DNA from: Liolophura sinensis
Lineage: Eukaryota; Mollusca; Polyplacophora; Chitonida; Chitonidae
Assembly (NCBI RefSeq): GCF_032854445.1
Contig: NC_088295.1
Coordinates: 92,807,805-92,871,804, forward strand
Length of the DNA stretch: 64,000 nucleotides
Reading direction: 5' to 3'
Shown: piece after piece, positions 8,351-60,412 of the stretch
Layout: the number at the start of each line of letters is the position of its first letter
Numbering within the stretch: position 1 is the first letter of the stretch
Position numbers and translations under genes: made by a program
The notes under the pieces: generated by a model
What the model was told of the DNA's origin: nothing
What the model saw: the letters and a program-made list of their open reading frames with translations, nothing else
Databases searched by the model: none

Positions 8351-8814
8351 TTGTTTCACATAACCAAGAATTAACATTCTTGTATGGTGTTGCTGCATGA
8401 TTGTTTCACTAACAGGATATCACCCTTGATGTTGTTGGTCTTTTCACATACTTGATACAATTTTTTCCTCATGCAGCTGGTTGCTCAGCATATCTTGTAG
8501 TATCATGTATGGTACTTGTACTTGTTAGTTCTTCTGCCAGTACCTAAAAAAATCATGTGTATGGTAGGTTTTCTGAATTGATGGTTATTTCAGATACCTG
8601 AGAAAAACATTTGTGTTTCTGGCTATTTCACATGTAACCAGCTGGTTGTGCAGTTTCCTTAATGATGCTGGCTATTTCACATGTAACCAGCTGCTTGTGC
8701 AGTTTCCTTAATGATAGTGGTTATTTACTATTGCTCATAAAATATCTTTGTTTTGTAATTTATTTCTTATACATGTAGCTGATAATGTATAATTTGATTC
8801 ATGAATTATTTTAC

Positions 8815-9292
8815 AAGCCCGATAACATCCTTTGTGTGGCTGATTACTTCAGATATTGCCTGATAACATCCTTTGTGTGGCTGATTACTTCAGATATTGC
8901 CTGATAACATCCTTTGTGTGGCTGATTACTTCAGATATTGCCTGATAACATTCTTTTTGTGGTTGATTACTTCAGATATTGCCTGATAACATCATTTATG
9001 TGGCAGATTATTTCACATATTGCCGGATAACATCCTTTGTGTGGTTGATTATTTCACATATTGCCTGATAACATCCTTTGTGTGGCTGATTATTTCACAT
9101 ATTGCTGGACAACATCCTTTGTGTGGCTGATTATTTCACATATTGCCTGGTAACATCTGTTGTGTGGCTGATTATTTCACATATTGCCTGATAACATCCT
9201 TTGTGTGGCTGATTATTTCACATATTGCCTGATAACATCCTTTGTATGGCTGATTATTTCACATATTGCCTGATAACATCCGTTGTGCTGTT
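8815..9292. repeat. Minisatellite, about 41-bp unit
   Basis: About 11 copies of a unit with 'cctgataacatcctttgtgt' and 'ggctgattatttcacatatt', in the intergenic region between the two IkappaB-like genes. Confidence 0.9.
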
Positions 9293-10164
9293 TGGCTTGT
9301 TCATTCACTCACCTAACGTATCATCATATACATTTTACAACATCTGTTCTTGAGCATGTCAGATTGATCTGAAACTTTGGGAATGGTTTATTTATGTCTG
9401 CCTACACCTTGAAGGTGGTATATGTTATTGTCTGCCCTTGTGCATTTTACAGGTTGAAAATAAATATATGAAATATTACATAAATTCATGTTCACTATAA
9501 CTTAAATAGAATAAAGAACACCATATATCCTAGGGGGAAAATACATGCTAATTGTTGTATAGCTTTATTATATCATATTTTCTGTGGAAAATTAAGTTGT
9601 GTAGCAGTTTGCATGGCTTCAAACACGCTTGGTGTCACAACGACTACAGTGGCCTATTTGATGTAATTATTAAGCTGAGATGCTGTTGCTGCTTTTTTTT
9701 TATAAAATAAAGTTGAAAAAGAAAATAATTTACGTTTTGTTTGCGTTTATTCATTTTTCATGTGATGTCAGATATTCTGTGTTGAGTATTTGGTGATACA
9801 AGTTACGAAATGAATATTCAGTGTATACAATATTATGTTGACGTTTACAATAAATTATCGTCATGCAGAAATTTCCCGCTGATCATATTCTGTAAGATGA
9901 TTGGAGGACTAAATGTGTAGGCTCTGCATAGACGTAATAGGCTATTTTTAGCGGTAACATGGCTGTGTGGGACTACCGATGTAGGGGAGGCGTCTGTTGT
10001 TCTACAAACGTGACGTATGAACATATTTGATTCATTTTTTGTTCTAGCTCAGTGTCAACACACAAGAGAGACGTGTTTGATAGTTCAGATGTATCTAAGA
10101 TTTATTTTTTACATATTTTTGGACTACAATTTAGAAATTTGGTAGGGCCCGGTGTGGAGACTCG
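9293..10164. other. Intergenic AT-rich sequence upstream of the second IkappaB-like gene
   Basis: No ORF or repeat of note. Poly(A) signal-like AATAAA at 9510-9515 and 9706-9711 could end the transcript of the upstream gene. Confidence 0.35.
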
Positions 10165-16400: not shown

Positions 16401-19400
16401 TCCCAGCTGTTGATGGTCAGACCCCAGACTCTATCATGTCTGAGCTGACCAAACCTATCCCTCACTCACCCATTGACCATCTCATGCCCCCTGGACAGTA
16501 TATTGATGAACACTTGGGTGATCTCAAAGATATCTATGATGTCATTGCTTCAGATCTGAAGAATCAACAACACAAGCGAAATTCAGTAAAGGAGCCCGCT
16601 GACAGGGCTGCCAGTAGTATGACATCACATGGCAAAGTCGGGGTGTCCCCTAAAGCACCTGAACCAGAACCCAAGAAGACCGTACCTGAGGTGAGCAAAG
16701 CCCCAGGGATCCCTGCAACGAGCACCACAATGACACCTGTGATCCTCAAGCCTCTGACCACAGGTGCGCAGATGACCCCAGTTCTGACCCAGCCTCCTCA
16801 GGTGATACAGGTCGGCCAGGGAGGTAAGGTACCCGTCATGGGACAGCAGATCATGTCTGGTCAGAACATTGTCTGGGTTCCTGTAAACACTGCTCCACCA
16901 ATTATTGTAGTCCGACAGACTCAACCAGCCAATCAGAAGAAAGGTGGACCCTCCAGACCCAGGCCAATCCTTCCCAAAATGCCCAGCATTTCTCCTGGCT
17001 CCAGTAAGGCAAGCACCTCTGTATCTCCCTCCACAGGCAGGACTACCATCAACTCCAGTCCTCAAACCAAACCACAGGTAATTGCCAGTAACTCACCTGC
17101 TGGTATCACTGCCCTGGCTTCACAGTCTGGCAGTCAGCAGGCAGGGAAAATGGGAAGCTCTGTCTCCAACAAGACGGCTACCAGACCCATGAGTTCTCAA
17201 CAGCTGCAACAGCAACAACAACTACAAATGCAGGCGCATCAAGTTACACAAGCAGCAGCTCAAGGTAAACATTCTTCAGGAAGTAACTTATGATCAGTTG
17301 ATTTTACTGATGATCTTGTACTATGCTCACAGGTGTAAAAAAATGGCTGACTGTAATGGTAATGATAGGTAAATGTGTTGTAAGTATTCCAAGGCCCTGG
17401 ATATCCAGGTGTGAATACCAGATCTTTCTTTATTTACTGTTAAGAAACCATATGTCTCTATATTGCCAGGTATTATAAGTTTACCTGTCTGTATTTACAG
17501 GCATGATGAGGCAGCCAGGTATGAATGTACCTCACCACATGAACCCTGCCATGGACGGCTGTGCGCCCAACAAACTCAACCTTGCACGGCGTTACATCGC
17601 AGAGATGAAGAAGGAAGATCTGCATTTCCAGGACCAAGATGGAGACACGTAAGTTCAGCAGATCAAACACTTGATCCATCTTGACATAGTCACCATCTTA
17701 TTGATATTTAAAAGTCCATAGATTGAGGAGAAATTCTGTGTACAAAGACTCTGTGTACAAAAAAATCTATATATTTTCAGAGTGAATTGCTCTAAGCTGT
17801 ACTGTTGAGTATTTATTAAGACCGTGATGTTTCTTGCTCAGGTACTTGCATGTGGCCATCTGCCGCACTGACCCCTACCTGGTCAAGGCTATTCTGGAGC
17901 GCTTGGTCAGAGAGAATCTCATCAAGGAACTCATTGACAGACCTAACAAAAAAAGACAGGTGGGTAGCGGCTGAGAGAGAATATTTGTGAAAGGCGAGAT
18001 TCATTCTAAATGGTTCGCCAGTCCAGCCTAACTTTGGCTAGTTATAGCCTTATGTCTTCACATACATTTAGATTACATATTTTCTTTCTTATCTTTGTGA
18101 TCAATCTATTGTGAATGTATCAACAAAATACATTGTGGTATTACTACAAATTTTAATCAGCCAAATGTACCCTTCCTGTAATGACAGTAAGTATTAGTCT
18201 GAAATATTTTGTAGACACCTCTGTACGTGGCTGTGGCAGACAACCAGCCTGTGATGGTGCGGGAGCTGGTGCAGTGTGGTGCAGAGCCAGACTGTCTGGC
18301 AGAGGTAAGATAACACCTTCTGATCCAAATCTTGTCACACTGGGGCAAAACATTCTGCTAAAAACGCATTGTGACAGTGTTTAGATTACACTTACATAGT
18401 TTCTCCTGTAATAAGATTTTCTGCTCATTATTGGAATATGTTGTCATGTGAATGAAAAATTGTTAAGTACCCGGTAAAATCTCAAGGATACATACATACG
18501 TAACTGGAACACAGTCAGCTTTATGAGACCCTGCTGTCCAGCATTGTCACCTGTAATTGTTGAATCCTAATGAGTGAGCACTTTTCTATGTAAACTGTGT
18601 GCAGTGTGCCGTGTGACTACATTGCTCATGTTGTTGTATCACAGTGCCAGTGGAACAATGGGATGAGGAAGGAAGTGAAGGCGGCCATTCACTGTGCAGC
18701 TCAGGGAGGTCAGGCTTTCACGGCCACACTGGCTGAGCTACTCAAGGCCAGGGGCATCAACCTCAACCTGGCCAACTCTGAAGGTCAGTCTGCATTTCCA
18801 GGATTGATTGATACTATTGTTAAATGTGATAGTTAACGGCACTATAGATAGGCACAGTTTGTCATGACACTTCTTTATGTATTGCTTACAGACAGAATAT
18901 GATCCACTGGCTGTCAGTTCTTCAAGTCTAAATTTTAATCCTGTATAATTAGACCAGACAATATAATGTCAGAATGCAAAATAACCTGTTCATGCTCAGT
19001 CTGTAGTTTTGTCCCAGTACCTTCAGACTTTTGCTGGATAATTTGTGAAGCAATACTTTTATGTTCCTAACGGATAGTGATGACCTATAGCATTTAAATG
19101 ATAGATGTCTAATGATTCTTCCTGTTTGTCCACCAGGTCTGACAGCAGTTCACTGTGCCATCCAGGAGCATGGAAAGGTCCGCGGGGGTCAGGTGATCAA
19201 CAGTATCCCTACCGTGGAGATGCTGATACGTGCCGGGGCTGATCCCAATGTACAGGTAAGACTACACGTGTAGCTAGCTGTTTGCTGTCACAAAGAGATT
19301 CACTTCAGGGGAAGGTGCTTTTAAGGATTCTTTGAGGACAGTCTAATTACAAATATCTCTCCTACAGAAAGGTTAGCAGGAATTTTGTACTCTTGCCTGA

Positions 19401-30026: not shown

Positions 30027-30669
30027 TATAAAACTGTAAATGTTAGGTTGAGCATACAGACAAGCTGCGGAGACGGAGTGGCAATGGTGAGAAGTTGAAT
30101 TTATGTGATTGCAGAGCATGGATTGGGGGTGATGGCCCCAAATCAGATCAGTGATATTATCATTTATAACGAAGCTTTCTGGTGCATGAGCCTGCAGATG
30201 AAGACTACAGTTAAATTGCTACACATGTATTACGTATGTAATGTTCATATAATTGTCCAAGATAAATATGACTGTTGTCCAATTACGGTAATTTCGGTTA
30301 TTTCTTGATTTCAGGTAGCGGTAGAAGTTTACCTGGTGAGTGGAGCTGTTGTCTGGTGACGATATCCCAAGTATATTTTGACAGGTAAAATCTGCCAAAT
30401 TGGACTTGCGAACTATGTACCTGGGAACAAAGGAATAGAGGCTTTGAGAACAAAGGAATAGAGGCTGATATAATTGCTGGAAACTGTGATACTCCGCTGC
30501 CTACATATTTGATATTCGACTGTGCACACTTGGCTGTGATATTCGGCTGGCAACACTTTTGGTATTCGAGTGGGCCACACTTGTGATTTTCGGCTGGCCA
30601 CACTTGGCTGGCCAGATCTTAGCTGTGACATTACATTGTGATACTCTGGTACTGGCTCAAAGCAGAATT
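30027..30669 (+). promoter_or_regulatory. Possible core promoter and spliced 5' UTR of the BTG/Tob gene
   Basis: TATAAAA at 30027-30033 sits about 640 bp before the start codon. A donor-like AATG|GTGAGA at 30086/30087 and an acceptor-like tttcttgatttcag at 30314 could define a 5' UTR intron. The interval 30420-30610 contains short degenerate repeats (tgatattcggctgg). This layout is an inference from motif spacing only. Confidence 0.35.
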
Positions 30670-32852
30670 ATGAGGGAAGAAATAGCAGCGGCTGTCGTGT
30701 TTTTGACTCGCGTCTTGCGTGAAAACAGCGGTGTGCCGAAGGAAAAACTTGCGATCTTCTCAGACAATTTGTCCGCCATTCTAGTAGAACGCTTCAAGAA
30801 CCACTGGCACTCGGAGAAACCCAGCAAAGGTCAAGGTTACAGGTGCGTGCGTCTGTCCACCAATCAGCATCACGATCCCGTGTTACGGCGAGCCGCCAAT
30901 CAATCAAAATTGGAGCTTCACAACCTGCGTCTACCTGTAGAGCTTGTGTTATGGATTGACCCCATGGAGGTCACCTGTCGGTAAGTACAAAAACGTCATA
31001 CGCAAAAGTGTAGAAACTAAATGGAGAAATTAGGATGTTGCTACAATCCAGTTTTAGGGGGTGGTATAACACGACAAAATTTTAAAATTAATCTATGTTC
31101 AAGTATATGTGCAGTTTAAACAAACCAGGTAAGTATAATGTTGGACTGTTATCCCACTAATACGGTAGACTTTATGTGCTTCTCTCGCAAAAGAAAAAAG
31201 AGCACTTAAAAACTCGATTTTCTTTGTATTCACTTCTCAGGCTGTAGGCCTATTCCCCAAGACTATAATACTGGAATTTGATGTAGCAAATTTTTACTCT
31301 TTTTGCCGCCTTATAACTGATAAAAAGAAAATGGAACTATTTGCGCAGTGATATATATTCATCATCTGTTTCGCTTGCACCCAGGAAAGTCTGTACATCG
31401 TCAACCTGTGCACCGTTCCTTCATCCATTACCTTAAGCCGTTAGTCAGTTCACCGTTCCTTCATCCATTATCTTAAGCCGTCAATCAGTACACGGGGACT
31501 CCGTGGCTCACTTACCAATGCGGTCGCCGTCAGCACAAGCCCGGGTCATACTGTCTTCCTCTCAGGCCGTACCGTACGTAGGAAGGTCTGTCAGCAACCT
31601 GCCGATGGTCGTGGGTTTCCCAAGGGCTCTGCCCGGTTTCCACCCCACCATAATGCTGACCGCCGTCGTATAAGTGAAATATTTTTGTACGGCGTAAAAC
31701 ACCAATTAAATAAATAAATCAATAAATCAGTACACCGTTCCTTCATCCATTATCTTAAGCCGTCAATCAGTACACCGTTCCTTCGTCCATTATCGTAAGC
31801 CGTCAATCAGTACACCGTCCCCTCGTCCATTATCGTAAGCCGTCAATCAGTACACCGTCCCCTCGTCCATTATCTTAAGCCGTCAATCAGTACACCGTCC
31901 CCTTATCCATTATCCTTAACTCGTCAATCAGTACACCGTTCCCTTATCCATTATCTTAACTCGTCAATCAGTACACCGTTCCCTTATCCATTATCTTAAC
32001 TCGTCAATCAGTACACCGTTCCTTTATCCATTATCTTAAGCCGTCAGTCAGTACATCGTCCCTTCACCCAATATTCCACGCCGTCAGTCATTACGTCGCT
32101 CCCTCACCTATTAACCTAAGCCGTAAGTCAGTACATCGTTGCCTCACCCATTAATCTATTAACTTGGTCAGTATGTCGTTTCCGCACCCATTAAACCCAA
32201 GCCATCAGTCAGTATCTCGCTCCTTTGTCCATTAACCCAATCCGTATAGATAGTATCTAGTTCCTTCGTCCATTAACCCTATCCGTATACCGTATAGTTT
32301 CCCACACCCATTAACCCAATCCGCATAGTCAGTATCTCATTCCTTCGTCTATTAACCAATCCGTATACTCAGCATCGTTTCCGCACCCATTATCGTAAGT
32401 CGTAAATATCTCGTTCCCTCACCCATTTGTCTCTCCCTCTGTGTTTCAGGTTAGGAGAGCACAAGTGTAATCAATGTACAGTGGCGTGTTTTAAGCCTGG
32501 TCAGAATGAGAACAACGCCCTCACCCTGGACATTTCCTGTATGATGGAGAAGCACCAGGAAGATGACGAGAAGAACCTACAGTTCCTGGCCAGCCGACTG
32601 AACAAGAAGTCTAGCAGCTACCAGCCAAAGGCCTACTCCCCGACGGAGGAATGGCAGGAGAAGGGCTGCTACGACACGGACAAGGAGAGTTACCGCCAGC
32701 TGTGGATCACTGAAGAGTACGCCGACCCATTCCATTACCTGGTCAAGGACGTCCGCGACAAGCGCGTCTATCTAAAGCAACAACACAATTCCCATAACCG
32801 CCACCACCAGGCCCAGTGTCTAACAGCCGTACCACTACCACAACCCCCATAA
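30670..32852 (+). CDS. BTG/Tob family anti-proliferative protein (BTG3/BTG4-like), 2 exons
   Basis: Exons 30670-30980 and 32450-32852 join as CG|G (Arg) to give about 237 residues. The start MREEIAAAV matches BTG-family N-termini, so the in-frame ATG at 30559 is not preferred. Box A is seen as KNHWHSEKPSKGQGYRCVR and box B as LPVELVLWIDPMEVTCR, followed by LGEHKCNQCTVACF, which parallels RYGEKNNAFIVASF of BTG3. BTG/Tob proteins bind the CAF1/CCR4 deadenylase through this N-terminal domain and restrain proliferation. The second half is family-specific and basic. The frame used ends at TAA 32850-32852, but coherent coding sequence continues in the +1 frame to 33009 and includes a YYRPI stretch like BTG3 box C. 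The true C-terminus is therefore uncertain. Confidence 0.87.
31385..32430. repeat. Minisatellite, about 40-bp unit, interrupted by a SINE
   Basis: About 20 copies of a unit with 'caccgttccttcatccatta' and 'tcttaagccgtcaatcagta' fill the single coding intron of the BTG/Tob gene. The array is split by the SINE at 31494-31724. Units become more diverged towards 32430. Confidence 0.9.
31494..31724 (+). mobile_element. SINE inserted in a minisatellite
   Basis: A 'ggggactccgtggctca' head with an internal deletion of part of the tRNA region is followed by 'ccaatgcggtcgcc', 'ggtcgtgggtttcc', 'ccaccataatgctgac' and an (aaat)n tail. It is flanked by 'aatcagtacac' on both sides, which fits a target-site duplication, although the target is itself a repeat. 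Confidence 0.85.
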
Positions 32853-39232: not shown

Positions 39233-42200
39233 ATGAGTGAGAAGAAATTCCCGAGAATGTCCGACTCATACGGTAAGTGTAGAACTCGTAAAAGCGTTAA
39301 TGCCAAACAAGAATGCTTCCATTGGTAAGGATATGGACAGTTCGAACCTTATTGTCACGTTGGTAAGATTTGCATCCACTGGTGTGGTAGTTTGGTAACT
39401 CACACCACAGGTCTGATATTCAATTAGACACTCTCCTAGATTCAATCTCCTCCATAGAAAATGGTGTATGATATCTGTAATTCCAAGTTTTGAATTGTTA
39501 ATGAAAAGAATGACATCCTGCAATGACCTAAATGTCTCTTGGTGTTTTAAATTCAACCTGTCCACGCCCTCTGTAGCAAGGCGTTAAATAGCATGGCCTG
39601 TTGCAAGGTAGTTTTCCTGGATGTCTTATATCTCCTGTTGTAATTTAACCTTTCCTGATGTTAAATAGGGAGTCCTGTCGCCATGCTGCGTTTCCTGACG
39701 TTATCTTGTGTGTCCTGTTGTAATGTTACGTTTCCAGACGTTTTCTTGTGTGTCCTGTTGTAATGTTACATCTCCTGTTGTAATGTTACATTTCCTGGTG
39801 TAATATTACGTTTCCTGACGTTATCTTTTGAGCCCTGTTGTAATGTTTTATTTCCTGACGTTATCCTACGTGTCCTGTTGTAATGTTACATTTCCTGGTG
39901 TTATCTTACGTGTACGGTTATAATGTTACATTTCCTGACGTTATCTTACGTGTGCTGTTATAATGCCACATTTCCTGGTGTTGTCTTACGTGTCATGTTG
40001 TAATGTTACATTTCCTGACGTTATCTTAGTGTCTTGTTGTCATGTTACATTTTCGGATGTTATCTTACGTGTCTGCGTGGTCTTTCACGTCCTTTTACTG
40101 GTATGGGTGTAAATGTCACATTTGGCTCCAGCAGAATATGTCCTAGTGTAGTTTACCATACACCGTTGTAGAGCTGTCGGAGCATAAATCGCATCCCCAT
40201 CATCTGTACGTGGAAGAGGCTTTCTACGATGGTCAGGGCTCCGCCTGGCGCTGTCTCAGGTGCGGGTCTCGTAGAGCTAAGGCGCTTTGGGTCCTGGTCG
40301 GTCTGCTTCTCGTGTGCGCCGCCCTCGGTGTCGGCCTGGGATTTGGCTGTGAGTTAAAAACCTACCCCATGTACTACCGTATACTCCATGTACTCACTTT
40401 CCTTACTAATGTCGCCTGACGAATCGGTGAAACTAAACTGTGGCCATGTTTATCTCTTAAATGCCGTTATTAAAGAACATGTTTAGCATACGCCATGCCC
40501 TTTCATTAATATTGCCTTTTGGCGATATAGCATGGTTAGCATAACCTGAAGGGTAGGATGACGCTAGAGCTTGGTGAGCATAACCCGGAGGATAACGTGA
40601 CTCTGTAGCATGGTGAGTAGAGTAACTAAGGAAAAGCCTGAAAAGGGGAAAAAAACACTGTAGCGTGGTGAGCATAACCCAGAGAGTAGCGTGACGCAAA
40701 AGTGAAGTTAAAATAGATGGAAAGTAACTTCGAATATTGAAATCATATTTCGGTCACTATGTTTGTGCCATCATCAATTTCTCTAATGATGGCACAAACA
40801 TAGTGACCGAAGTATGTACTTTCCTTCTATTTTATGCAAAACTGATCTGTGGAATCACTGGATAAAGGAAATTAACTATATAGCCTGACGAGTAGTGACA
40901 CCATAGTATTGTGAGCATAACCCGGACGGTACTGACACTATAGCGTGGTGAGCATACCCCGGGGAGTAGAGAGCCACTAATAAGGAAGTTAACTAATGCC
41001 TGAAAAGTATTGACACTGTTTAGCATGTTAAGCATGATCTGAAGAGTAGAGTGACGCTTTAGTATGAAGAGCACAACTGAAGAGTAGGAATGGTATACAA
41101 TGATGAGCATAGCCTTGAGAATAGTAACACTGAAGCATGGTGAGTATGACCTGGAGAGTAGGGTTGCGCTTTAGTATGGTGAGCACAACCTGAAGAGTAG
41201 TGACGGTATAGCGTGGTAAGCACAACCTGAAGAGTAGTGACGGTATAGCGTGGTGAGCACAACCTAAAAGTTGTGACGGTATAGCATGGTGAGCACAACC
41301 TGAAGAGTAGTGACGGTATAGCGCGGCGAGCACAACCTGAAGAGTAGTGATGGTATAGCGTGGTGAGCACAACCTGAAGAGTAGTGACGGTGTAGCGTGG
41401 TGAGCACAACCTGAAGAGTAGTGACGATATAGCCATGCATTCAGACGGTGCACTTATATATATGTTAACAGCAAGGAAATCGAGCCATCATATAGCCAAA
41501 TCAAATCGAAAGGAAGCCTTTACATAAGTCATTCTAATTCCTTTTGAGTTACGTGATATGTATATGTCATTATATTAAACAAAATTTACTGTAGAAAATT
41601 TTCACTGTAAAATGTATGTTTAACGTTTGCCGAATGGTTGCTATATATTTGACAAATTCATGAAATGACGATGTGATGAAAGGCAGTTTGTGTACAGTTG
41701 CAGGTAAAAATTCCGCTGAAAAGAACGAGTTAAGGTCTCACCAATCCTCCACAGACGGTCAAACCTCACAGAAATCGATAACAACGTCAGCGCTCTCTAC
41801 ATCAGATATGAATTTAACAACTATGCCCACATCCGGGTCCCCTTCTTCAATCGCAGCATCTAGTGAGTCTTCCGAAAGTTCCCCCATGACGAGTTCCACT
41901 GATATAATCATCACGGACCTTCCTACTACCACAAAAACCATGGAGTCCAACTGGACCTTCCCAAACGAAACCACGGACATGTCAACATCGCCTGGAGCTA
42001 CGCCAGATACGACAGAGAAGGTGGTCACGAACACGACAGAGGAAGGTGTTACGAACACGGCCTCTGTGAGTGTAACAACCACAGCCCGGAAGACCACAAC
42101 CCAATATCTGGCCTCCACTCCCACGAATTATACAGAATCCACGAACGCTTCAATAGCCTCAAATACGAGTGATGTTCCAACACCTACCATGCCGTCAATC

Positions 42201-42614
42201 TCCGTCAGCTTGACTTCTAATGAAACCCCATCACCAGCCACGATTTCACCTGTAATCACATTGATGTCATCGGCGACACCAATGCCCACAGTAGAGTCAA
42301 CGGCGACTCCAGTGCTTACAACAGAGTCAACGACGACATCAGCGCTTATAGTAGAGTCAACGCCGACACCAGTGCCTACAGTAGAGTCAACGGCGACACC
42401 AATGCCCCCAGTAGAGTCAACGGCGACACCAGTGCCCACAGTAGAGTCAACGGCGACAACAGTGCCCACAGTAGAGTCAACGGCGACACCAGTGCCCACA
42501 GTAAAGTCATCGACCACAGCTATGCCCACAGTAGAGTTAACGTCTTCATCTCCTACGGCTGAGGACCATACAATGCTGAGCAGTATAGTCCCATCAGCAA
42601 GCAGTGGTTCCTAG
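39233..42614 (+). CDS. Mucin-like Ser/Thr-rich type II membrane protein, 3 exons
   Basis: Exons 39233-39272, 40172-40348 and 41704-42614 join in phase 1 at both junctions to give about 375 residues. Residues 1-50 are a short cytoplasmic tail starting MSEKKFPRMSDSY, with Cys and a basic RCLRCGSRRAK just before the membrane. Residues 51-72 are one hydrophobic segment (ALWVLVGLLLVCAALG) with positive charge on its N side and no signal peptide, so a type II orientation is expected. The rest is Ser/Thr/Pro-rich with several N-glycosylation sequons (NLT, NWT, NYT, NAS) and about nine copies of a 10-residue PTVESTATPV-like repeat. This suits a heavily O-glycosylated surface mucin. No enzymatic or lectin domain is visible, and I do not recognise a named orthologue. 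Confidence 0.72.
39600..40085. repeat. Minisatellite, about 40-bp unit
   Basis: About 11 copies of a unit with 'gtgtcctgttgtaatgttac' and 'atttcctgacgttatcttac' in intron 1 of the mucin-like gene. Confidence 0.88.
40480..41440. repeat. Minisatellite, about 40-bp unit
   Basis: Copies of a unit with 'gcgtggtgagcacaacctga' and 'agagtagtgacggtata' fill much of intron 2 of the mucin-like gene. They are regular at 41130-41440 and diverged before that. The minus-strand ORFs of 125 and 141 codons are the array. Confidence 0.88.
40707..40838. repeat. Foldback element with 26-bp perfect inverted arms
   Basis: Left arm 40750-40775 and right arm 40787-40812 are exact reverse complements, with an 11-base loop. 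Imperfect outer arms (aaaatagatggaaagta and tactttccttctatttt) extend the pairing. It lies in intron 2 of the mucin-like gene and interrupts the minisatellite. It may be a MITE-like insertion or a transcribed hairpin. Confidence 0.8.
42275..42545 (+). repeat. Coding 30-bp VNTR of the mucin-like gene (60-bp higher order)
   Basis: About nine units encoding a 10-residue Pro-Thr-Val-Glu-Ser-Thr-Ala-Thr-Pro-Val pattern. Lines 60 bp apart are almost identical, hinting at expansion two units at a time. Length polymorphism is likely. Confidence 0.85.
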
Positions 42615-48901: not shown

Positions 48902-51900
48902 ATGGTGATGTACCTTGTGGGAATATTGGTTTTTATGACAGGTAAGAGAAAATGAAGAGATATTATGGTAGTAAAATTTGCCCCCTACAAACTTTGCGTC
49001 CCAAAGAGATAATATCCAGAGCAAATAGTGTGTTGACAACAAATCAAGTTTACAAAACCTATCAATCCATACCACGTCACTTCATACTAAAGCTTAATTT
49101 CGACGTCAACAAGTCAACAATATCTGGGTATCTCACATTACCACAGTCTACGGTCAGACAATATCTGGGTGTCTCCTCACTCCATTACATCTCATATTAC
49201 CACAGTCCTCAGTCGGACAATATCTGGGTATCTCACATTACCACAGTCCACAGTCAGGCAATATGAGGGTGTCTCCTCACTCCATTACATGTTATATTAC
49301 CGCAGTCTACAGTCAGACAATATTTGGGTGTCTCCCCACTTCATGACATCTCACATTACCACAGTCTACAGCCTAACAATATGTGGGTGTCTTACAACAG
49401 TCTACGGTCAGACAATACCTGGGTCTCTCCCCGCTTCATTACACCTCATATTATCACAGTCTGCAGTGAGACAAAATATGGGCATTTCCCCACTCCATTA
49501 CACCCCATATTACCACAGTCTACGGTAAGAGAATATCTGGGTGTCTTCTTACTCCATTACGTGTCACATTACCACAGCCTACGGTAAGACAATATCTGGC
49601 TAAGACAATACGTGGGCGTCTTCTCACTCCATTAAACCTCGCATTACCAGTCTACAGTCAGAAAATATGTAGGTGTCTCTTGGTTCCATTACATCTCATA
49701 TTACAACAGTCCTCAGTCAGACAATATCTGAGTATCTCACATTACCACAGTCCACAGTCAGGCAATATGAGGGGTGTCTCCTCACTCCATTACATGTTAT
49801 ATTACCGCAGTCTACAGTCAGACAATATGTGGGTGTCTCCCCACTTCATGACATCTCACATTACCACAGTCTACGGTCTGAAAATGTGCGGGTGTCTCCT
49901 CATTTCGTGACATCTCACATTACCACAGTCTGCAGCCAGACAATATGTGGGTGTCTTCTCATTTCATGACATCTCATATTACCACAGTCTGCGGACCGAA
50001 AATATGTTAGTGTCTTCTCACTTCGTGACATCTCACATTACCACAGTCTACAGGCAGACAATATGTGGGTGTCTTCTCATTTCATGCCATCTCACATTAC
50101 CACAGTCTACGGTCAGGCAATATGTGGGTGTCTTTTCACTTCATGACTCACATTACCGAACTGTACAGGGATTAACTGTGCTCTCTCGGACGGCCTTCGA
50201 GTTTTTTTGGGAACCATCTTCATGTCCATTCCTTAACTCTCTATTTTCTCAGATCTGAGCCTTGGAGTGGAGATTTTCCCCCCGTCACAGGAAGTGATCA
50301 TACAAGCGAGGGTGGAAGAAGTCACTCTGCCATGTAGCTACCAGTCTCAGGGGGCCGCGGTCCGTACACAGGCGACCATCCACTGGACCCTCGGAGACCG
50401 TGACGGTCGACTGATCCTCTCAGACCAGTACGCTAATGGGGTCCCGGGAGGGCGATTTTCCGGGCGAGTCCGGCTCGGTCAGCGGGCGGATCTGATCCTG
50501 GCTCAACCGATGGTCTCAGACAGTGCCACATACACGTGCTCTGTGCATATACCAACAGACACGATTCCCACAGCCTGGGGAAAGGTCATTCTGGTCGTCA
50601 CCGGTAAGTGCTGCTCGTGTGCCCATACCTAGAAATGTTCCCATGAATGGTACAAGTGGAATACTTGTAGTAGTGCTGCAAGTGACATATCAAGTGATGG
50701 TACAAGTGACATACATGTTGCGGGTAAACTCACATACCTACTGCTGGTACAGGTGACATACCTAGTTCGGGTACAAGTGCTTGTACAAGTGACATACTTA
50801 GTGCTTGTACAAGTGACATACTTCGTGCTTGTACATGTGACACACCTCTTGCTGGTACAAGTGACATACCTAGTGCTTGCATAAGTGACATACATGTTGC
50901 GGGTAAACTCACATACCTAGTGTTTGTACAAGTAACATATCTAGTGCTTGTACAAGTGACATACCTAGTGATTGTAAATGTGAGATACCTAGTGCTGGTA
51001 GAAGTAACATGCCTAGTGCTGAACCAGGTGACATATACCTAGTGGTGGTAGAAGTGACATGCCTATTGTTGATACAAGAGACTTACCTCGTGCTCGTACA
51101 GGTGACATACCTAGTGCTGGTACAAGTATCATTCCTAGTGCTGATGCAAGTGATATACCTAGTGCTGGTACAAGTGATATACTTAGTGTTGGTACAAGTG
51201 ACATGCCTAGTACTGGTAAAGGAACTGACCCAGTGGTGGTACAAGTGATACACTTAATGCTGGTACAGGTGACATACCTAGTGCTGGTAGAAGTGACATG
51301 CCTATTGTTGGTACAAGTGACATACCTAGTGGTGGTACAAGTGACTTACCTAGTGCGGGTAGAAGTGACATGCCTAGTCCTTGTACAAGTGATATACTTT
51401 GTGCTTGTACAAGTGACGTACCTTCTGCTTGTACAAGTGACATACCTCCTGCTGGTACAAGTGACATAGCTAGTGCTTGTACAAGTCACATACCTAGTGC
51501 TTGTACAAGTCACATACCTATTGAGGATGCAAGTGACATGCCTAGTGCTTGTACAAGTGACATACCTAGTGTTGATGCAAGTGACACGCCTAGTGCTGAT
51601 GCAAGTGATATTCTTAGTGCTGGCAAATGCGATATACCTAGTGCTCGTACAAGTGATACCTAGTGCTGGTAAATGCGATGTACCTAGTGCTGGTACAAGT
51701 GACATACCTAGTGCTGATGCGAGTGACGCGCCTAGAGCTGATGCACGTGATATGCCTAGTGCTGGTATAAGTGTCATACACAGGGCTGGTATAAGTGTCA
51801 TACACAGGGCTGGTATAAGTGTCATACACAGGGCTGGTATAATAACATATCATTTACTACAGGTTTAGTGGGATGAGAAGACACACTTATAATTATTAGT

Positions 51901-54900
51901 ACGCATTGGTAGCGTACGGAGACTATGGATGCGTTTCCTGTGTTGTAGAATGCGCTCGGCCGGACACCGTTGCAGTGGGGATCTGCGTCACGCTGGACAT
52001 CCTGCTCCTTGCCTCGGCCATCCTCTGGTTTGTCCTCAGTGCGAGACGGAGGATCATGGAGGTCAAGCTGTGTGAGTCTTCTCTATCGTCTGTAATCACT
52101 TCATGTAAATTAACCATTTGATGAGTTGTTGGGGTTAACTACTAAATCCTGCAGGAAGCGTAAAACTGTATACTTATAGCCTTCACCATAAGTTAGGTGC
52201 ATAAGCTACGCCTTGAAAGATGGCCATAAGAACTGTTTATGACAGAAGCTCCTCTTCAAAAACAACCTTAAAAGTAACTGTAAAAAGCACATATTTATGG
52301 TCATACAAAATTGTTCCTTTGGGATAGCCGATTTTCTTTCAGTGATTTACGATTGTAATCGTAATCAAGGATTACATTATCTGTTGCGGCCCAGCTTATT
52401 GCCTGTCCTATGTTCCCAGACCGTCGCATCTTACGCCTGGTGGCAGCAGCCAGTGCGCTTGCGTGTACAGTTAGTGCCATCGTCCTGATCATCTATGTGT
52501 GTCAGGAATGTGTCCAGAAATTACAGCGTAAGTTAGTCTTGTCCAATTTATTAATTAGATCTGTCCTTAGAACTATCGGAAATGTACCGATAATAGTCAT
52601 CGACCATTCTGCTAGCCCAGAAGACTGGCCGAGGCTTCCCACCCACTGTATACAGGGTAAGATGCAGCCCTCCCAGCTTGCATCCTTCAAGCACTGGTAT
52701 GATTGGAATCTTGTAACAAGTCATTGCTTCCTAAGCTAGTCATTCGCCTAACTAGGAAAAGGATAAAATGTTTCAATATTAGGTAAGTTTGTGAATGTGT
52801 ATTTGGTGTAATGAGCAACTAAGTACATTATAGAATTGTGAAGCAATTTCTAGTTTCAATGTAAAACATGAATTATCTGTGTGTGTTTTCCACGGACAGG
52901 TCTGCGCGTGGCCGGGATATTATTCTGTGTCCTTAGCTTGTTTCTGGCCATCCTCTACTGGCTTCTCACGGCGAGGAAACTCCGAGGTAACACACCGCAC
53001 CCCTGGGGTAGTTGTCATATAGTGTGTTACATGATTTACTCTCAATCCTGATATAATGCCAGATGGAACATTCTCCACAGAGTACTAAAAACATGGTTCA
53101 CACATGACATCACATGTACCACTCCTGTACCACATTCATGAGGGTAATGAAAACAGTCCTGATATAATACCATTTGTGTCACACCTTAGGTAACGGAAAT
53201 AAACTCCAGACGCAATACCATTTGTGTCACTCACTAGGTCAGTGAACGATACCCCGGACGCAATACCATTTGTGTCAGACGCTATGTAATGGAAATACAC
53301 TCCAAACGCAATACAATTGGTGTCACTCCCGAGGACGGTAAAACATACCCAGAAACAATACCATTTGTGTCACCCTAGGTAATGGAAATATACTCTACAC
53401 GCAATACCATTTGTGCCACACTTTGGGTGCCACACCATGGGTAAGGGAAACATTAGACATTACTCCATGTGCACCACTCCCCAGGTAATGGAAACATCAG
53501 ACATACCTCCACGTGTGCCACTCCCTAGGTAATGGAAACATACCCCAGACGTAATGCCACTTGTGCCACACCCTAGGTAATGGAAACATCCTCTAGATGT
53601 GCATTGCTCCCTAGGTAATGGAAAGATCAGACATATCTCCATGTGTTGCTACTTCCTAGGTAATGGAAACATGAGACATAACTGCATGTGTGCCACTCCC
53701 TAGGTAATGGGAACATTAGACATAGCTCCATGTGTGCCACTCCCTAGGTAATGGAAACATGAGACATAACTTCATGTGTGCCACTCCCTAGGTAATGGGA
53801 ACATTAGACATAACTCCATGTGTGCCACTCCCTAGGTAATGGAAACATTAGACATAACTTCATGTGTGCCACTCCCTAGGTAATGGAAACATGATACATA
53901 ACTTCATGTCTGCCACTCCCTAGGTAATGGAAACATGAGACATACCTCCATGTGCACCACTCCCAAGGTAATGGAAACATAAGACATAATTTCATGTGTG
54001 CCACTCCCTAGGTACTGGAAACATGAGACATAACTGCATGTGTGCCACTCCCTAGGTAATGGGAACATTAGACATAACTCCATGTGTTGCTACTTCCTAG
54101 GTAATGGAAACATGAGACATAACTTCATGTCTGCCACTCCCTAGGTAATGCAAACATGAGACATAAATCCATGTGTACCACTCCCCAGGTAATGGAAACA
54201 TAAGACATAATTTCATGCGTGCCACTCCCTAGGTAATGGAAACATGAAACATAACTGCATGTGTGCCACTCCCTAGGTAATGGGAACATTAGACATAGCT
54301 CCATGTTTGCCACTCCCTAGGTAATGGAAACATGAGACATAATTTCATGTGCACCACTCCCTAGGTAATGGAAACATGAGACATTACTCCATGTGCACCA
54401 CTCCCCAGGTAATGGAAACATGAGACATAAATGCATGTGTGCCACTCCCCAGGTAATGGAAACATGAGACATAACTGCATGTGTGCCACTCCCTAGGTAA
54501 TGGAAACATGAGAGATTACTCCATGTGCACCACTCCCCAGGTAATGGAAACATGAGACATAATTTCATGTGTGCCACTCCCTAGGTACTGGAAACATGAG
54601 ACATAACTGCATGTGTGCCACTCCCCTAGGTAATGGAAACATGAGACATAATTTCATGTGCACCACTCCCTAGGTAATGGAAACATGAGATATTACTCCA
54701 TGTGCACCACTCCCCAGGTAATGGAAACATGAGACATAACTTCAAGTGCACCACTCCCTAGGTAATGGAAACATGAGACATAACTGTATGTGTACCACTC
54801 CTTATGTAATGGAAACATGAGACATTACTCCATGTGCACCACTCCCCAGGTAATGGAATCATGAGACATAACTTCATGTGTGCCACTCCCCAGGTAATGG

Positions 54901-57900
54901 GAACATCAAACATAGCTCCATGTGTGGAAATAGTCCAGATTTTATACTACTGTGATCCACTCTCTGGATGATGGAAATACACGTAGTCCAGATGTAATAT
55001 CAGACGTATTACAGGGTACACTTCTACGCAAGTCGTAACACGATGTTTGTCTATACCCCAGCTTCCTTTTATGACATTTCTACGCTTTGTTCTATAGGCA
55101 CTGACGGCCAGCCTGTCCATAACTTCCCGCATGATGAGCTCGAGTCCGCTGAAGGTAGGCAACATGACGCCTCAGTATATTTTATTTCTCCTGACATATA
55201 TGATTAATTTTGTTCACTGAACCAACCTCGAACTTTTCGCTCATTTTGGGACGATTACATTCATTTTAATGTTGGGGAGCACATCAACATAGTAAAGTGT
55301 ACGACGCGTATTGTCAAAGTCAGATCTCATCAGTGAGCCTACATTAAAGGTAAGCCCTGACCAGCCACCTGGCGGCATATGTTTTGTCCACACACTCATT
55401 CGGACACTCATTTCATTAACCCTCACTTCTTATTTCAGTTGTAAAACAGGAACTACCAGTTTATAAAGAGAAAGGCAAGCCATTTATTAAAATACATCTG
55501 CATATACTTCCGTCCGTCCACCTTATTTGCCTTGTAGTACATTACTGCATTCTTATGTGTACCTTGTTCCATGCATTTTCTCTGATTTTTTTAGTTATTT
55601 TGAGTGATACACCTTTTTGTGGAGTGTTTCTGACGTGGTTTACGTGTTGTGTATGTATGCAACCGCATAAGGTATTAGCGAATGCTACCTGAAGCAGACT
55701 CATTGAGTTAAAACTGCATTATGTAAAAACTGTAGAACAAGTTTTCACAAAATTCTGTTGTGTTTGCATGTACTATAACAACTGGACTGGCTGTTTTCAA
55801 CCTAGAATCACCCGTTATATATGCATGCGTGATTCATTTTATTTTTAGATGATCTTTTCGCTTCCGTTTGGGCAAATGTTCCCAATGCGAACAAATCTCA
55901 CTGCTTACATTTACAGTAGATAATTGCACGCATTATAGCCTAGGCCCACAGAATGTAGACCCTGCCTAAAAAGTGTTTCTATCTAATACGACAGGGAAAC
56001 GTCCCAAGTTGTCGATAACACTTATCCCTCGTCATGAAATCCCATCTGAAACCGGTGGACTCCCATAGAAGTAGAACTATTGATATAGTTTCAAGACGTG
56101 CTTTTGTATTTAGAACTCTTTATCTAGCCTTTATCTGTATCAGCGGTTACCTCGGTAGCTTCGGTAGAAGTGGAAATGGTATCACTGAGCACTGCTTTCA
56201 ATGTAGTTCGCCGTGTATACGGTATTGTTTGTTGTTTAACCAGCCATGCTGGAACACCACAGGCTGGGCTCAGGGTCGGGCTCAGCCTCTCCCACGGACA
56301 AGGTCAGCCATGGGGACTTTCCTCCAGACATTGACAAGACTCGCTATGATGATATGGTGAAGAGTAAGTATGTACTCAGGATAGTCAAAGTTCAAGGTCA
56401 GTTCTGTCGGGATTAAGGGGTACTGCACAGGGACATTCGCAAAACGATGTTGACGTAATTTGAAATTTTTTTATTATGAAATAAAAATGCATACATTATC
56501 ATTTCCATCTGATAATGAGCAGACTATTTATCCTGGTGAGTTTTGGTTTCGTGTCTATGGTAATCAAGGCATATATTAGCTGAGTAGGTTGACATTGTCA
56601 CAGGTAAAACCATAACGTCAGAGAAATTTCTCTGGTCGTAACACCTTGAAGGCTGCATGTGTTTTAGCTTTAAGATAAGAGTTTCCCAGGACGATCTAAT
56701 CAAAGACTTGCCCAAGTACAACAACGGACTGGGTTGCCTGATTCTATTTCGTGTATCACATGTCTTACAGTTCTTCCAAACAACGACACAGGCCCGAGAG
56801 CTCGTCGCTTCGAGGAGCTGAGGACCAGAGAGGCATTACCTTCACAGATGGACAGATACCTGCCAGAGCCAATGCAAATCATGGGTAAGATGGCCGACAC
56901 TGACGGCAGAGGCACAAACATGTGTGATGTGTCTCACGGGTAAACATACGAGGAGAATACTAACATGCACTGATGAGCTAGCATAGTCAAGTAGATCTAC
57001 ACGACACAAACCTTATGTATTTCACATACTCATCATTAATTTATCATTCTACCGTAGAGAAGTTCCTTGATGATATATTCAGAGTAATAGGTTATGAGAG
57101 TTAAAATTTTCTTCAGCTAGCCTTGAAAACATCGCTGTTCCCCAGTTGGCCTTGTATATACTAATCTAGCAGGCAATGGAAGATATTGCCGCCGCGAACT
57201 TGGCCTGGGAACTAACATCTTGAAGAGGTATATACAGGTTTCTCCTTCTGGTTGTGCAATTTGTGAGCTGTGATCGTCTAATTCGAGTGTCTCAAGCTAT
57301 CTGTGGAAGCCGCTGTGATGTCTAAACGCTATCCTCCATCTTTTGATCCAGATCAATACGGTGCCGGACGATCCCCGACAAGTGTCGGACCGGATGAAGT
57401 CTTCTACCCACCTCGTGGTCCCACAGCCGCCACGAGACTGAAGGGAGATAACGACTTGAGTCGGGCACCTGTTGCTGAGACCGGCATTCCTCCACGGTCA
57501 TCTGGGAGGCCCACAGACACCCAGATCACCTTCAGGCAGAATGGTGGGGTCAACAGACACAGGCCAACAGAGACCGCTGTAGATCCCCATCCGTCCAGAC
57601 CTAAACCCCCGGCCCCTCAACCCCCGCCGCCCCAGGAACCCGCCCCACGTAAGGCACAGCTGAGTCTCCCTGCTACAGGACAACCAGGTGAGATGTGACG
57701 CAGATAATAATTGTAAGAATTGTGGTAGTAAATTGGGAATGTCGGAAATGCTTCATTTCGGTCCTTTTAAATTCTGATATGTTAGTAGTTACGCGTAAGC
57801 TAAAAGTTATGTCAAGTTCAAGTTTTAAATGCAGCCAGAAACCTGTTAGAGTGTACAAGAATATAGGTGGTCTGTTTTTGGTAAACTGTAACGTGTGACT

Positions 57901-60412
57901 ACATCTGTCTGCTTTCTATTTCCATGTTCAGTTCTCCTGCGTGACAGGAGTGCCATGAGGAAGGCCCGAAGCATGGAGGTTTTGAAGAGGGGTCTGTCCC
58001 TACCTGTCCTCAACGTGGAACGGAGAAGCCTGCCACTAAGTATTGAGGAGAAAAGTAAGTTGTTCTCAAACTTTTGTTTACTTGTGGGGTAAGTTATTCT
58101 CAAACTTTAGCTTATTTGTGAGGTAAGTTATTCTCAACTTTAGTTTATTTGTTGGTTAAGTTATTCTCAAACTTTATTTTATTTGTGCGGTTCGCTATTC
58201 TCGAACTTTAGTGTATTTGTGTGGTAAGTTATTCTCAAATTCCTAGGTGTACCCTTGAAAATAACTGTATCCATTTAAACTGCCCAAATGTACGATGCTT
58301 AGCGTATGATTCGACTGCTAGTACTCTTTCCGCTGTTTTTAAAGTGGAATTCAACTGACCTATGCTTGATTTTTCGTTACAGTTGACCAGGACATTTTCT
58401 TAGAGGACTGCAAAAAAGTCGCCGATTACTTTGTTGAGACAACGACGTACCAGGCTTTTGCTAAGCTTCTAAGGCACAAGGACACTCGGGGTGTGACACT
58501 GACAGGTGGTCCAGGGACAGGAAAGACCGCCTCGGCCATGTATGCCGCCTGGATACTCCACTCTGCCGAGGGTTATCTGCCCCTGAAAGTCAGGACGATA
58601 GCCGAGATTGAGCGGATCTATATAGAAGGCTTAAAGTTGGTGTTTGTTGTCGATGACCCATTTGGGAAACTCTGTGCCTCGTCAGAATTGCAGCAATATT
58701 GGCGGTCTTCCGCTAAACGATTGCAAGAATGTCTTTGTACAGATAACGTTAAAATAATAGCCACTGTTCGTACTGATATTTGGGCTGCATCTCAGTACAG
58801 CGTCATGCGATACCCGCCCTTTTCTTCTGCAGTAGAAATCTCCGGAAAATTGGCCTTAGGAGAAAGACGTTCCATGTTGGAGAAGCACCTCGGCTTGATA
58901 GGTATGCACCCGAGTGATCCATCTTGGGCAGATACTGTCCGATTAATGACTCTGCCTGCGGTCCCGCCGCTCTTTCCTCTCTGCTGTCATTTGGTGAGAA
59001 CGTCGGAAAGCTTCAGAAACTCCGCCACGGCCCTCTTCTACAAACCCATGGACACAATGAGGAAAGACATGTGCAATCTGCGGAAAGAAGATCCAGCGGC
59101 ATTCTGTGTTCTTTCTCTGATGTTAGTTCATGGTGGTAAACTGAGCCGAACGGTGTTGTCCCGGCCATTGACTGAGCTCCCCTCCACGGAGCGTGACAAG
59201 ATTGAACAGATCTGGAAAATGTGTAGTAAGAAACCGTCTTCGACATCGCCCTCTCCCGAGGAGTTCCAGCAGAAAGCTGACAAGTTGGCCAAAATTTACG
59301 TAGAAAAGACTGAAACCAGTCTACAATTTTCACTGACGTCATTTGCCGACGTGGCTTTGTTGGAGATGGCTGATCTAAACATAGAGCTGGTGTTAAGATG
59401 GTGTCATCCTGATGTCATAGCTGGGAAGTTGATACCGCAGGGCAGTCAGCCCACGACGTCACAGACCATGGTGGTCGTCAGCCCCAAACACTGGCCCCAA
59501 CTAGCCAAAGTTCTGACAAACGAATTTCTGGCTGGCAATGTGAAGGCCATTTTAGACAACCCTTCCTGGAAATCCGAGGATTTCGTCCTTTCTTGGAAGA
59601 AGCACATTGTGACTGATGCTGTCCGAGAGAAGCTTCGCTCTGTGAGCGGGTCGTGCTCTCAGGGAGAGATCGTCCACAGGGCCGCTCGTCAGGGCCTTTT
59701 GACCTTCCTGCGTGTTCTGCTTCAGGACGTCACTCTTGGCAAGAACGGCGTGCGCCTGCGCAATGAGTACGGACAGAGTTTACTTCACTCGGCTGCTACG
59801 GGGGGTTGCACCAACACAGCTCAGTTTCTCCTGGATAAGGGTTGTCTGGTGGACGCTGTCAACGACGCCGGGGAGAGTCCTCTGTACCTGGCCTCCCTTC
59901 ACGGACACACGGCCGTGGTGGACCTCTTACTGCAAAACAAGGCGAACCCTGATTTGACCAACAGACTGGGCCTGGGTCCTTTACACGCAGCCGTTTTCGG
60001 GGAGCGTACGGAAGTCGTCTTCACTCTCGCCTCACACGTGGCCTTGGAAACTTTAGGTGGATCGTCACGAAGTAAGATTGCAATCACGTCGTTCAGAGAC
60101 AAATTCTTGTCTACATTAAAACACAGTGGTCTTCATGAGGCGGCGAGGACTGGCGACCTTGTTCGTATTCATCACCTGCTGGACAATGGCTTTGACAAGA
60201 ACGCGCAGAATAAGTACGGCTGGTCGCCGCTCTACATAACGGTCATACTAGGCCACGTTGAGGCGGCGGCGCTGTTCCTGATCAGGGGAGCCAACCCCAG
60301 CATAACGAGTCGTCAAGGCTCAGCCCCGCTTGACGAAGCCTGCAGCACATTCAACGACCCGCTTGTGGCTTTGCTACTCTCTTACGGCACGAAGAGGAGT
60401 TCATGTATTTGA
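48902..60412 (+). CDS. Ig V-set / transmembrane / nSTAND3 NTPase / ankyrin receptor-like protein, 12 exons
   Basis: Exons 48902-48941, 50253-50603, 51949-52071, 52420-52527, 52900-52986, 55098-55154, 55439-55474, 56244-56363, 56771-56884, 57352-57687, 57932-58054 and 58383-60412 join without a break (all phase 1) into about 1174 residues. Order: signal peptide (1-17); V-type Ig (C41, W58, DSATYTC with C109); hydrophobic segments about 138-160, 178-199 and 211-230; cytoplasmic linker with YDDM (302-305) and a Pro-rich RPKPPAP (428-434); P-loop NTPase with Walker A GGPGTGKT (540-547) and Walker B VVDDPFG (D589, D590); ankyrin repeats from about 927. The NTPase matches nSTAND3 in motif order. 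STAND proteins are nucleotide-driven switches, many of them innate immune receptors. A surface receptor passing Ig binding to a cytoplasmic switch is the inferred role. One intron uses a GC donor. The start has G at -3 and +4. Confidence 0.85.
49100..50160. repeat. Minisatellite, about 59-60-bp unit
   Basis: About 17 copies of a unit with 'ctcacattaccacagtctac' and 'ggtcagacaatatgtgggtg' fill intron 1 of the Ig-STAND gene. ORFs of up to 119 codons here are repeats in shifted frames. Confidence 0.92.
50253..50603 (+). CDS. Ig V-set exon of the Ig-STAND gene
   Basis: One exon encodes the entire domain, residues 14-130, flanked by phase-1 introns (the classic shuffled Ig layout). V-set marks are VTLPCSY (C41), IHW (W58), GRFSGRV and DSATYTC (C109) with a closing GKVILVV strand. 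Spacing between the cysteines is 68 residues. It is the only Ig domain I can find in the gene. Ligand unknown. Confidence 0.88.
50640..51850. repeat. Minisatellite, 24-bp unit
   Basis: About 48 copies of a unit based on 'gtacaagtgacatacctagt' plus 'gctg' in intron 2 of the Ig-STAND gene. Because the unit is a multiple of three, frames stay open on both strands for up to 159 codons. None is a gene. Confidence 0.95.
51949..52986 (+). CDS. Three consecutive transmembrane exons of the Ig-STAND gene
   Basis: Exons 51949-52071, 52420-52527 and 52900-52986 each encode one hydrophobic helix and each is symmetric (phase 1-1). Helix 1 (VAVGICVTLDILLLASAILW) has Asp147 inside and RRR after it. Helix 2 (LVAAASALACTVSAIVLIIY) is preceded by RRILR. 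Helix 3 (VAGILFCVLSLFLAILYWLL) is followed by ARKLR. The positive-inside rule fits a three-pass protein with the Ig outside and the NTPase in the cytosol. Inclusion of only one helix 1- or helix 3-type exon would give the same end topology, so alternative splicing is possible. Confidence 0.75.
53150..54930. repeat. Minisatellite, about 48-bp then 44-bp unit
   Basis: About 35 copies of a unit with 'ccactccctaggtaatggaa' and 'acatgagacataactccatg' after five or six longer variant units (53150-53420). It lies in intron 5 of the Ig-STAND gene. Nearly every unit has a donor-like TAG|GTAATG. Minus-strand ORFs are repeat. Confidence 0.93.
55475..56243 (+). other. Intron 7 of the Ig-STAND gene (GC-AG)
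   Basis: The donor reads GAGAAAG|GCAAGC, and the acceptor tttgttgtttaaccag at 56243 keeps phase 1. The interior is AT-rich, with no repeat array. An ORF starting at 56034 that crosses the acceptor uses a different frame and is not the product. Confidence 0.7.
58055..58235. repeat. Tandem repeat of the 5' splice site, about 34-bp unit
   Basis: Five copies of a unit with 'gtaagttattctcaaacttt' plus 'agtttatttgtg' begin exactly at the donor of exon 11 (58054/58055). Perfect GTAAGT hexamers occur at 58055, 58089, 58123 and 58224. Confidence 0.88.
58383..60412 (+). CDS. nSTAND3 NTPase and ankyrin exon of the Ig-STAND gene
   Basis: A single 2-kb exon encodes residues 499-1174. An N-terminal FVETTTYQAFAKLL helix leads into Walker A (58505-58528; Lys546 codon at 58523) and Walker B VFVVDDPFG (Asp589 codon at 58652). 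KIIATVRTDIW follows as a sensor-like strand, then a winged-helix-like all-alpha region to about residue 920. About seven ankyrin repeats then run to the C-terminus, including GQSLLHSAATGG, GESPLYLASLHGH, GLGPLHAAVFGE, SGLHEAARTGD and GWSPLYITVILGH. Repeat 4 is followed by a short non-ankyrin insert. Both catalytic motifs look intact. In-frame GTG 58493 is internal, not a start. Confidence 0.9.

Follow-up and report, generated by a model that had tools for sequence, protein, structure and literature searches.

A probable single gene of the chiton Liolophura sinensis encoding a V-set immunoglobulin domain, membrane helices, an nSTAND3 NTPase and ankyrin repeats

The window, namely the whole 64-kb stretch of Liolophura sinensis DNA under analysis (C1:92807805-92871804), contains twelve exons on its plus strand that assemble into one frame, from a start at 48902 to a stop at 60412, coding for 1174 aa (Table 1). 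An earlier note, made from the letters of the window, had claimed twelve exons with agreeing phases and a single frame, and this is borne out, since 11 out of 11 introns of the chain are in phase 1. With every intron in this phase, the skipping of an exon preserves the frame. Genome searches were performed on the L. sinensis assembly (609 Mb, 632 contigs); the published assembly is described with 632 scaffolds (PMC11068029), and a separate notice corrects the species name (PMC12441733).

Table 1. Positions of the exons of the candidate receptor gene, of other features of the window, and of the exons at the second locus, pC2b (TM, transmembrane).
Feature	Position	Strand	Description
Exon 1	48902..48941	+	putative signal peptide (MVMYLVGILVFMT), 40 nt, phase-1 donor 11.0 bits; no coding signal; least certain start
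Exon 2	50253..50603	+	V-set Ig domain (LPCSY..HW..DSATYTC), phase 1-1; Pfam 36.9 bits
Exon 3	51949..52071	+	TM1, 123 nt, phase 1-1; 123-nt TM1 counterpart in paralog pC2b
Exon 4	52420..52527	+	TM2, phase 1-1
Exon 5	52900..52986	+	TM3, phase 1-1
Exon 6	55098..55154	+	juxtamembrane, cytoplasmic, phase 1-1; strong splice sites
Exon 7	55439..55474	+	tentative, 36 nt; GC-AG donor (55474); frame holds if skipped
Exon 8	56244..56363	+	linker; NCBI protein begins at its Met (56246)
Exon 9	56771..56884	+	linker
Exon 10	57352..57687	+	Pro-rich linker; acceptor chosen to reproduce NCBI protein
Exon 11	57932..58054	+	basic linker
Exon 12	58383..60412	+	nSTAND3 NTPase, middle region, about 7 ankyrin repeats, stop TGA
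Intron 1 minisatellite	49112-50147		period about 59
Intron 2 minisatellite	50679-51839		period about 24
Intron 5 minisatellite	53166-54926		period about 44-48
Intron 11 minisatellite	58055-58239		period about 34
782-aa open frame	14945-17293		no Pfam match at E<=0.05
BTG-family exon	30490-30984		Pfam PF07742, 123 bits
Candidate TM exon	40237-40348		upstream of receptor gene
Ser/Thr-rich, mucin-like open frame	41664-42614		upstream of receptor gene
pC2b V exon	C2:16067933-16068274	same as rest	phase 1-1; Pfam V-set 31.6 bits
pC2b TM1	C2:16070436-16070558	same	123 nt, phase 1-1
pC2b TM2	C2:16071320-16071430	same	111 nt, phase 1-1
pC2b TM3	C2:16073236-16073340	same	105 nt, phase 1-1
pC2b nSTAND3	from C2:16078823	same	phase-1 acceptor (by eye)

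The closest protein is LOC135481784 (P0001), an uncharacterized L. sinensis protein of 906 aa, whose NCBI model consists of exons 8-12 only and omits exons 1-7. With acceptors at 56244 and 57352, our model reproduces the NCBI protein exactly, from residue 269 to the C-terminus. In the unspliced frame, a stop lies 9 nt upstream of the NCBI start Met in exon 8. The phase-1 acceptor of this exon, which at 5.5 bits is the lowest of the chain, falls two bases before that Met, so that joining to exon 6 or 7 keeps the frame.

The exons were confronted with chance expectation using splice matrices of consensus values. A strict scan for TM exons (donor and acceptor of at least 4 bits, 60-150 nt, helix score of at least 2.3) recovered, on both strands of the 64 kb, the three TM exons of the model as sole phase-1/1 candidates; among 20 shuffled versions of the plus strand, one strict TM exon appeared in two cases and none in 18. 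When all phases were admitted at helix score 2.3, the window gave nine overlapping candidates on the plus strand and none on the minus strand. A laxer scan (helix score of at least 1.9, up to 170 nt) of the 20 kb around the gene added five overlapping antisense candidates, the repetitive translations of which look, by eye, like the intron-2 minisatellite. The GC content is 52-61% in exons 2-6 and 8-12, against 31-46% in the 150-bp flanks. Phase-1/1 exons with a GC content of at least 52% and splice scores of at least 5 number 33 on the plus and 25 on the minus strand of the window, and the gene span holds 17 of the 33, including exons 2-6, exons 8-11 and overlapping variants; exon 7 was not recovered. 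Codon usage gives no signal for exons 1 and 7 and a value near zero for exons 4 and 5, while exons 3, 5 and 6 each have one or more alternative frames that outscore that of the model.

Tandem repeats are abundant, with 88 rows across the window, and the minisatellites flanking the V and TM exons could help exon duplication. Apart from the BTG-family exon and the 782-aa open frame, the window carries a candidate TM exon and a mucin-like frame that perhaps belong to another membrane protein (Table 1).

With regard to the encoded domains, the Pfam search of exon 2 places the V-set score above its cut-off of 26 bits. The Cys-Trp-Cys core is present by eye, and the best PDB sequence matches of this exon are T-cell receptor alpha and antibody light-chain V domains. 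Three Kyte-Doolittle helices, scoring 2.51-2.55, occupy residues 142-229. In exon 12, nSTAND3 (PF20720) reaches 77.1 bits against a cut-off of 27.2, over residues 21-174 of the 680-aa ORF, and the refined protein has the Walker A motif GGPGTGKT at 540 and the Walker B motif LVFVVDDP at 584; Ank_2 scores 100.8 bits in the same exon, where the ankyrin repeats were counted by eye. The V-type Ig domain, the three hydrophobic helices, the nSTAND3 NTPase and the approximately seven ankyrin repeats of the earlier note are all confirmed by these searches. Its 'membrane-bound NLR-like receptor' stands in part: the predicted topology fits, but the Pfam results (exon 12 scan and NCBI protein list) include no NACHT, LRR or death-fold domain, so that this is not a classical NLR. 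Exon 12 gave no NACHT match even at E<=1, and the precomputed Pfam list of the NCBI protein (exons 8-12) comprises ankyrin models and PF20720 only, with neither DED nor TRADD-N. PADLOC returned ankyrin matches plus two weak ones over the NTPase (28.8 and 11.9 bits), and NCBIfam returned matches far below cut-off only. The mean pLDDT of AlphaFold models was 37.0 for the Ig exon (single sequence) and 36.5 for exon 12 (3 sequences), values too low for judging a STAND fold with its winged helix.

Seven nSTAND3 loci above the cut-off are present in the genome, window included, and the six others were read over 20 kb upstream and 5 kb downstream. One of them, pC2b on scaffold C2, harbours a V exon, three TM exons and nSTAND3 on one strand, collinear with the window gene (Table 1). 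The two V exons share 35% identity over 95 aa. In a 4x4 matrix of module scores between window and pC2b, every row peaks on the diagonal in both local and global alignment, the TM3 peak of the global matrix by one point only. Out of 5000 shuffles, the local score was reached or exceeded by 0 for V, 35 for TM1, 17 for TM2 and 34 for TM3, and the global score by 0, 1, 1 and 105, respectively. By arithmetic, with 15 others on a 28.4-Mb scaffold, a given place on C2 has a chance of about 0.005 of being preceded by a same-strand V exon in the 20 kb upstream. Near the pC2b V exon no convincing signal-peptide exon was seen, and a Pfam search of the sense strand over about 14 kb downstream gave no ankyrins. 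A VWA exon and a weak TSP1 match, situated some 8 kb past the nSTAND3 exon of pC2b (C2:16083823-16093822 stretch), probably belong to a different gene.

At the remaining five of the seven nSTAND3 loci, the 20 kb upstream contained no match to V at E<=0.001, and there was no comparable TM array. A match to the window V exon at pC7 (E 0.16) was disregarded. No Pfam match was obtained in the 10 kb directly upstream of pC1b, pC8 and pC7; at pC1a, a hydrophobic phase-1/1 exon lies 15 kb upstream, in the midst of exons resembling by eye a phosphate-transporter gene. According to BLAST, the closest paralog of the window nSTAND3 is that of pC1b, which has no V or TM exon, and not that of pC2b. Since the pC2b NTPase is closer to that of pC1a than to that of the window, NTPases may have been exchanged between chassis.

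The genome search with the window V exon yielded at least 17 further matches at E<=0.001, 16 on C2 and one on C347; two near-identical copies lie on C2 at 26287415 and 26295133. Nine of the 18 V loci were read, window included, each with at least 10 kb downstream: beyond the window and pC2b, these are V1, V4, V5, V6, V7, V11 and V17. In all nine, one or more TM exons come after V. Non-overlapping phase-1/1 TM exons number two each in V1, V4, V6, V7 and V17 and one each in V11 and V5, that is 12 in the 70 kb downstream of the seven further V exons, with none antisense. As controls, eleven other stretches gave two in 220 kb of strand-length (one being the pC1a exon), and positions 1-48000 of the window gave none in 96 kb of strand-length. 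In all phases, with V5 restricted to its first 3300 bases, the seven loci have 37 overlapping sense candidates versus three antisense; 18 of the 37 come from V1, and phase 1-1 is the commonest class (12 of 37). One of the two TM exons of V1, which is AT-rich, may be there by chance.

Under strict settings, three helices are found in three of the nine loci (window, pC2b and V7), joined by V4 when the acceptor threshold is lowered to 3.6 bits. V1, V6, V11 and V17 have two each, and V5, whose downstream DNA is largely minisatellite, has one. As an even number would leave the following module outside, either helices were missed or the chassis varies. The modules themselves differ: nSTAND3 in two loci, a propeller-like region in three and nothing recognised in four, namely V1 (Pfam scan) and V5, V6 and V17 (reading of open frames). 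In V7, a single open frame spans the third helix and the propeller-like region. The same is true of the second helix and the propeller-like region in V11, where a weak donor (3.2 bits) after the helix means that the link could be spliced away. The V7 region matches Pfam NHL at 22.2 bits (cut-off 20) and that of V4 reaches 18 bits for a propeller model, below the cut-off; V11 and V4 share with V7 33% (E 4e-61) and 27% identity (E 2e-30), respectively. A BTB-BACK open frame lies about 4 kb beyond the propeller-like region of V4 (positions 7975-9417 of that stretch), and an integrase-like open frame of a retroelement was noticed by eye near V6 (C2:25144130-25154129).

With its homologous V exon followed by same-strand phase-1 TM exons, the window gene fits this pattern and, judging from sequence, probably belongs to a V-plus-helices family whose inner modules are exchangeable. 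In the window and pC2b, both ends of the V and TM exons are in phase 1, and 1-1 is also the most frequent class of TM exon elsewhere, so exon shuffling could exchange modules in frame. We tentatively put forward, at slightly under even chances, that these loci form a clustered family of chiton surface receptors with one V domain, up to three helices and an intracellular part swapped between loci; the swapped parts would, with the same reservation, include nSTAND3 with or without ankyrins, an NHL-type propeller, and others.

We regard it as likely that one gene codes for a membrane receptor of about 1174 aa, made up of a signal peptide, a V-set domain, three TM helices, a tether, nSTAND3 and ankyrins. 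The predicted domains, the phases, the helices, the collinear paralog and the V family can be read in the DNA itself, and from them we strongly infer the covalent V-TM-nSTAND3 linkage and its topology. The earlier note had also proposed a single gene with Ig V, helices, nSTAND3 and ankyrins, which the comparison with pC2b and the V loci of the same genome supports well, though the NCBI model splits it. With V outside and an odd number of helices, the predicted order places nSTAND3 in the cytosol. The receptor would thus have an N-terminal signal peptide, an extracellular V-set domain, three TM helices and a long C-terminal cytosolic part comprising a Pro-rich tether, the nSTAND3 P-loop NTPase and the ankyrin repeats. 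A ligand on a microbe or another cell would cluster the V domains, bringing the STAND modules together and favouring an NTP-bound oligomeric state, while the ankyrins and the Pro-rich tether would recruit partners. Given that no enzymatic or death-fold effector was found, the output after NTP-driven oligomerisation is likely scaffolding; our best guess, by analogy with the sea cucumber protein AjNLRC4, is something like cytoskeleton-driven uptake.

Protein searches were made for related architectures. Among 5229 candidates of about 163-520 aa (a range that excludes a lone Ig exon of about 130 aa), none matched the V/TM part at E<=10. Among the 7991 scored candidates sharing most words with the query, 15 matched and none aligns before residue 269: P0001 and 14 ankyrin-repeat proteins covering 15-20% of the query, from residue 533 on. 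In a further search, two of the 7996 best word-sharing candidates matched, P0001 and P0016. The latter has 704 aa, is 89% identical to the query and derives from a 5755-bp contig; its N-terminus seems, by eye, to come from reading through the last intron, and it therefore probably represents genomic DNA of a related chiton. No other Ig-TM-nSTAND3 protein was found among the best word-sharing candidates scored. As no protein of the lengths searched was found to contain the V/TM part, the annotation seems incomplete, wherever the gene boundaries lie.

Ten of the 15 listed matches are TANC-like, most of them named TANC2. TANC-like proteins are cytosolic scaffold proteins; they match the chiton protein over its P-loop region and ankyrins (residues 533-1172), and none aligns with V, TM or linker. 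CD47 has an IgV ectodomain, five TM helices and a short tail, and resembles the chiton protein in carrying IgV on a multi-span membrane part, whereas in the latter three helices precede a tail of about 940 aa. With regard to the NTPase, nSTAND3 is that of bacterial Avs5, an immune protein which likewise combines PF20720 with C-terminal repeats but has a Sir2-like effector, Ig and TM being unmentioned in the accessible part of that source (PMC12931631). The nearest designs come from the sea cucumber Apostichopus japonicus. AjNLRC4 unites an extracellular Ig part, membrane helices and an intracellular STAND-class NTPase, as is predicted for the chiton protein, and differs by a NACHT instead of nSTAND3, two Ig-type domains, and two predicted TM helices, one of them after NACHT; the word 'ankyrin' is absent from this echinoderm study, in contrast to the ankyrins of the chiton (PMC8699970). 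Its authors describe a phagocytic receptor that binds Vibrio through Ig, with Ig-mediated microbe binding, dimerisation and actin-dependent uptake (PMC8699970). AjNLR-new similarly has Ig, TM and NTPase in one membrane protein, but with NACHT rather than nSTAND3, and its authors put NACHT outside and Ig inside (PMC13133943). Among molluscs, the NCOA6-clade TRADD-N receptor-like expansion of Crassostrea virginica combines a Cys-rich ectodomain, TM, DED and TRADD-N with variable C-terminal modules (PMC8195603). It recalls the chiton family by its constant ectodomain-TM part and its variable modules, STAND NTPases and ankyrins included, and departs from the chiton protein by its Cys-rich ectodomain, single TM helix, DED and TRADD-N (PMC8195603). 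A literature search lying mostly outside subscription journals brought up neither an Ig-nSTAND3 protein nor a chiton V-TM family. The earlier note's remark that this is not known as a described family agrees with that search for the exact combination, but similar designs are published. The architecture is a probable single gene and a new combination within the known ectodomain-TM-STAND receptors.

It is possible, though we would not expect it, that the locus gives two products, a long membrane receptor starting at exon 1 and a short cytosolic nSTAND3-ankyrin form for which an internal promoter at exon 8 would be used. The NCBI model begins in exon 8, and yet this exon has a usable phase-1 acceptor, and the common phase keeps the frame on skipping; on the other hand, the NCBI start may be a mere ab initio choice. 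Such a scheme is compatible with the single gene and refines it. Somewhat more doubtful is a genuine receptor serving adhesion, allorecognition or neural recognition instead of antimicrobial defence. V domains are established in all three roles, and the Pfam list of the NCBI protein holds no death-fold domain, but STAND modules and clustered V-gene expansions (here, one scaffold has 16 of the 17 matches) are characteristic of immune families. The antimicrobial function reported for AjNLRC4 (PMC8699970) points the same way, and its transfer to the chiton protein is by analogy. The ligand, the switching and the immune role of the single-gene receptor are inferred only, and it is a plausible immune receptor.

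We consider it improbable that two neighbouring genes are involved, one for a short Ig-V protein with three TM helices (exons 1-6) and one for a cytosolic nSTAND3-ankyrin protein (exons 8-12), a division that the NCBI model implies. The exon 8 Met and the stop shortly before it, the lack of a V match upstream of five of the seven nSTAND3 loci and a possible termination after exon 5 (read-through stop at 53049, AATAAA at 53198) would suit such a division. Against it, no annotated protein with the V/TM part was found among the candidates searched, so that the annotation seems to have missed exons, the V-TM-TM-TM-nSTAND3 order is met again at a diverged locus of a different scaffold, and helix and cytoplasmic module share an open frame in V7 and, less clearly, V11. 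A reading of the 5' exons as relics that have ceased to be spliced to the nSTAND3 gene, as their omission by NCBI and near-zero codon scores in exons 1, 4, 5 and 7 might suggest, is very hard to reconcile with intact open frames, splice sites intact except for the exon 7 donor, and conserved V residues.

NLR-class proteins are usually cytosolic sensors, and a surface V receptor wired directly to a STAND switch would merge both halves of innate immunity in one molecule. The present case also suggests a way in which such receptors can stay hidden, namely the loss of 5' exons in automatic annotation. If the single-gene reading is true, the Ig-TM-STAND design is present in molluscs as well as in echinoderms. 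On the more tentative reading of a family with swapped intracellular parts, a molluscan system would connect one recognition chassis to various cytosolic machines, an NLR-like switch among them. The clustered V family offers a testable system for the swapping of intracellular modules in immune receptors.
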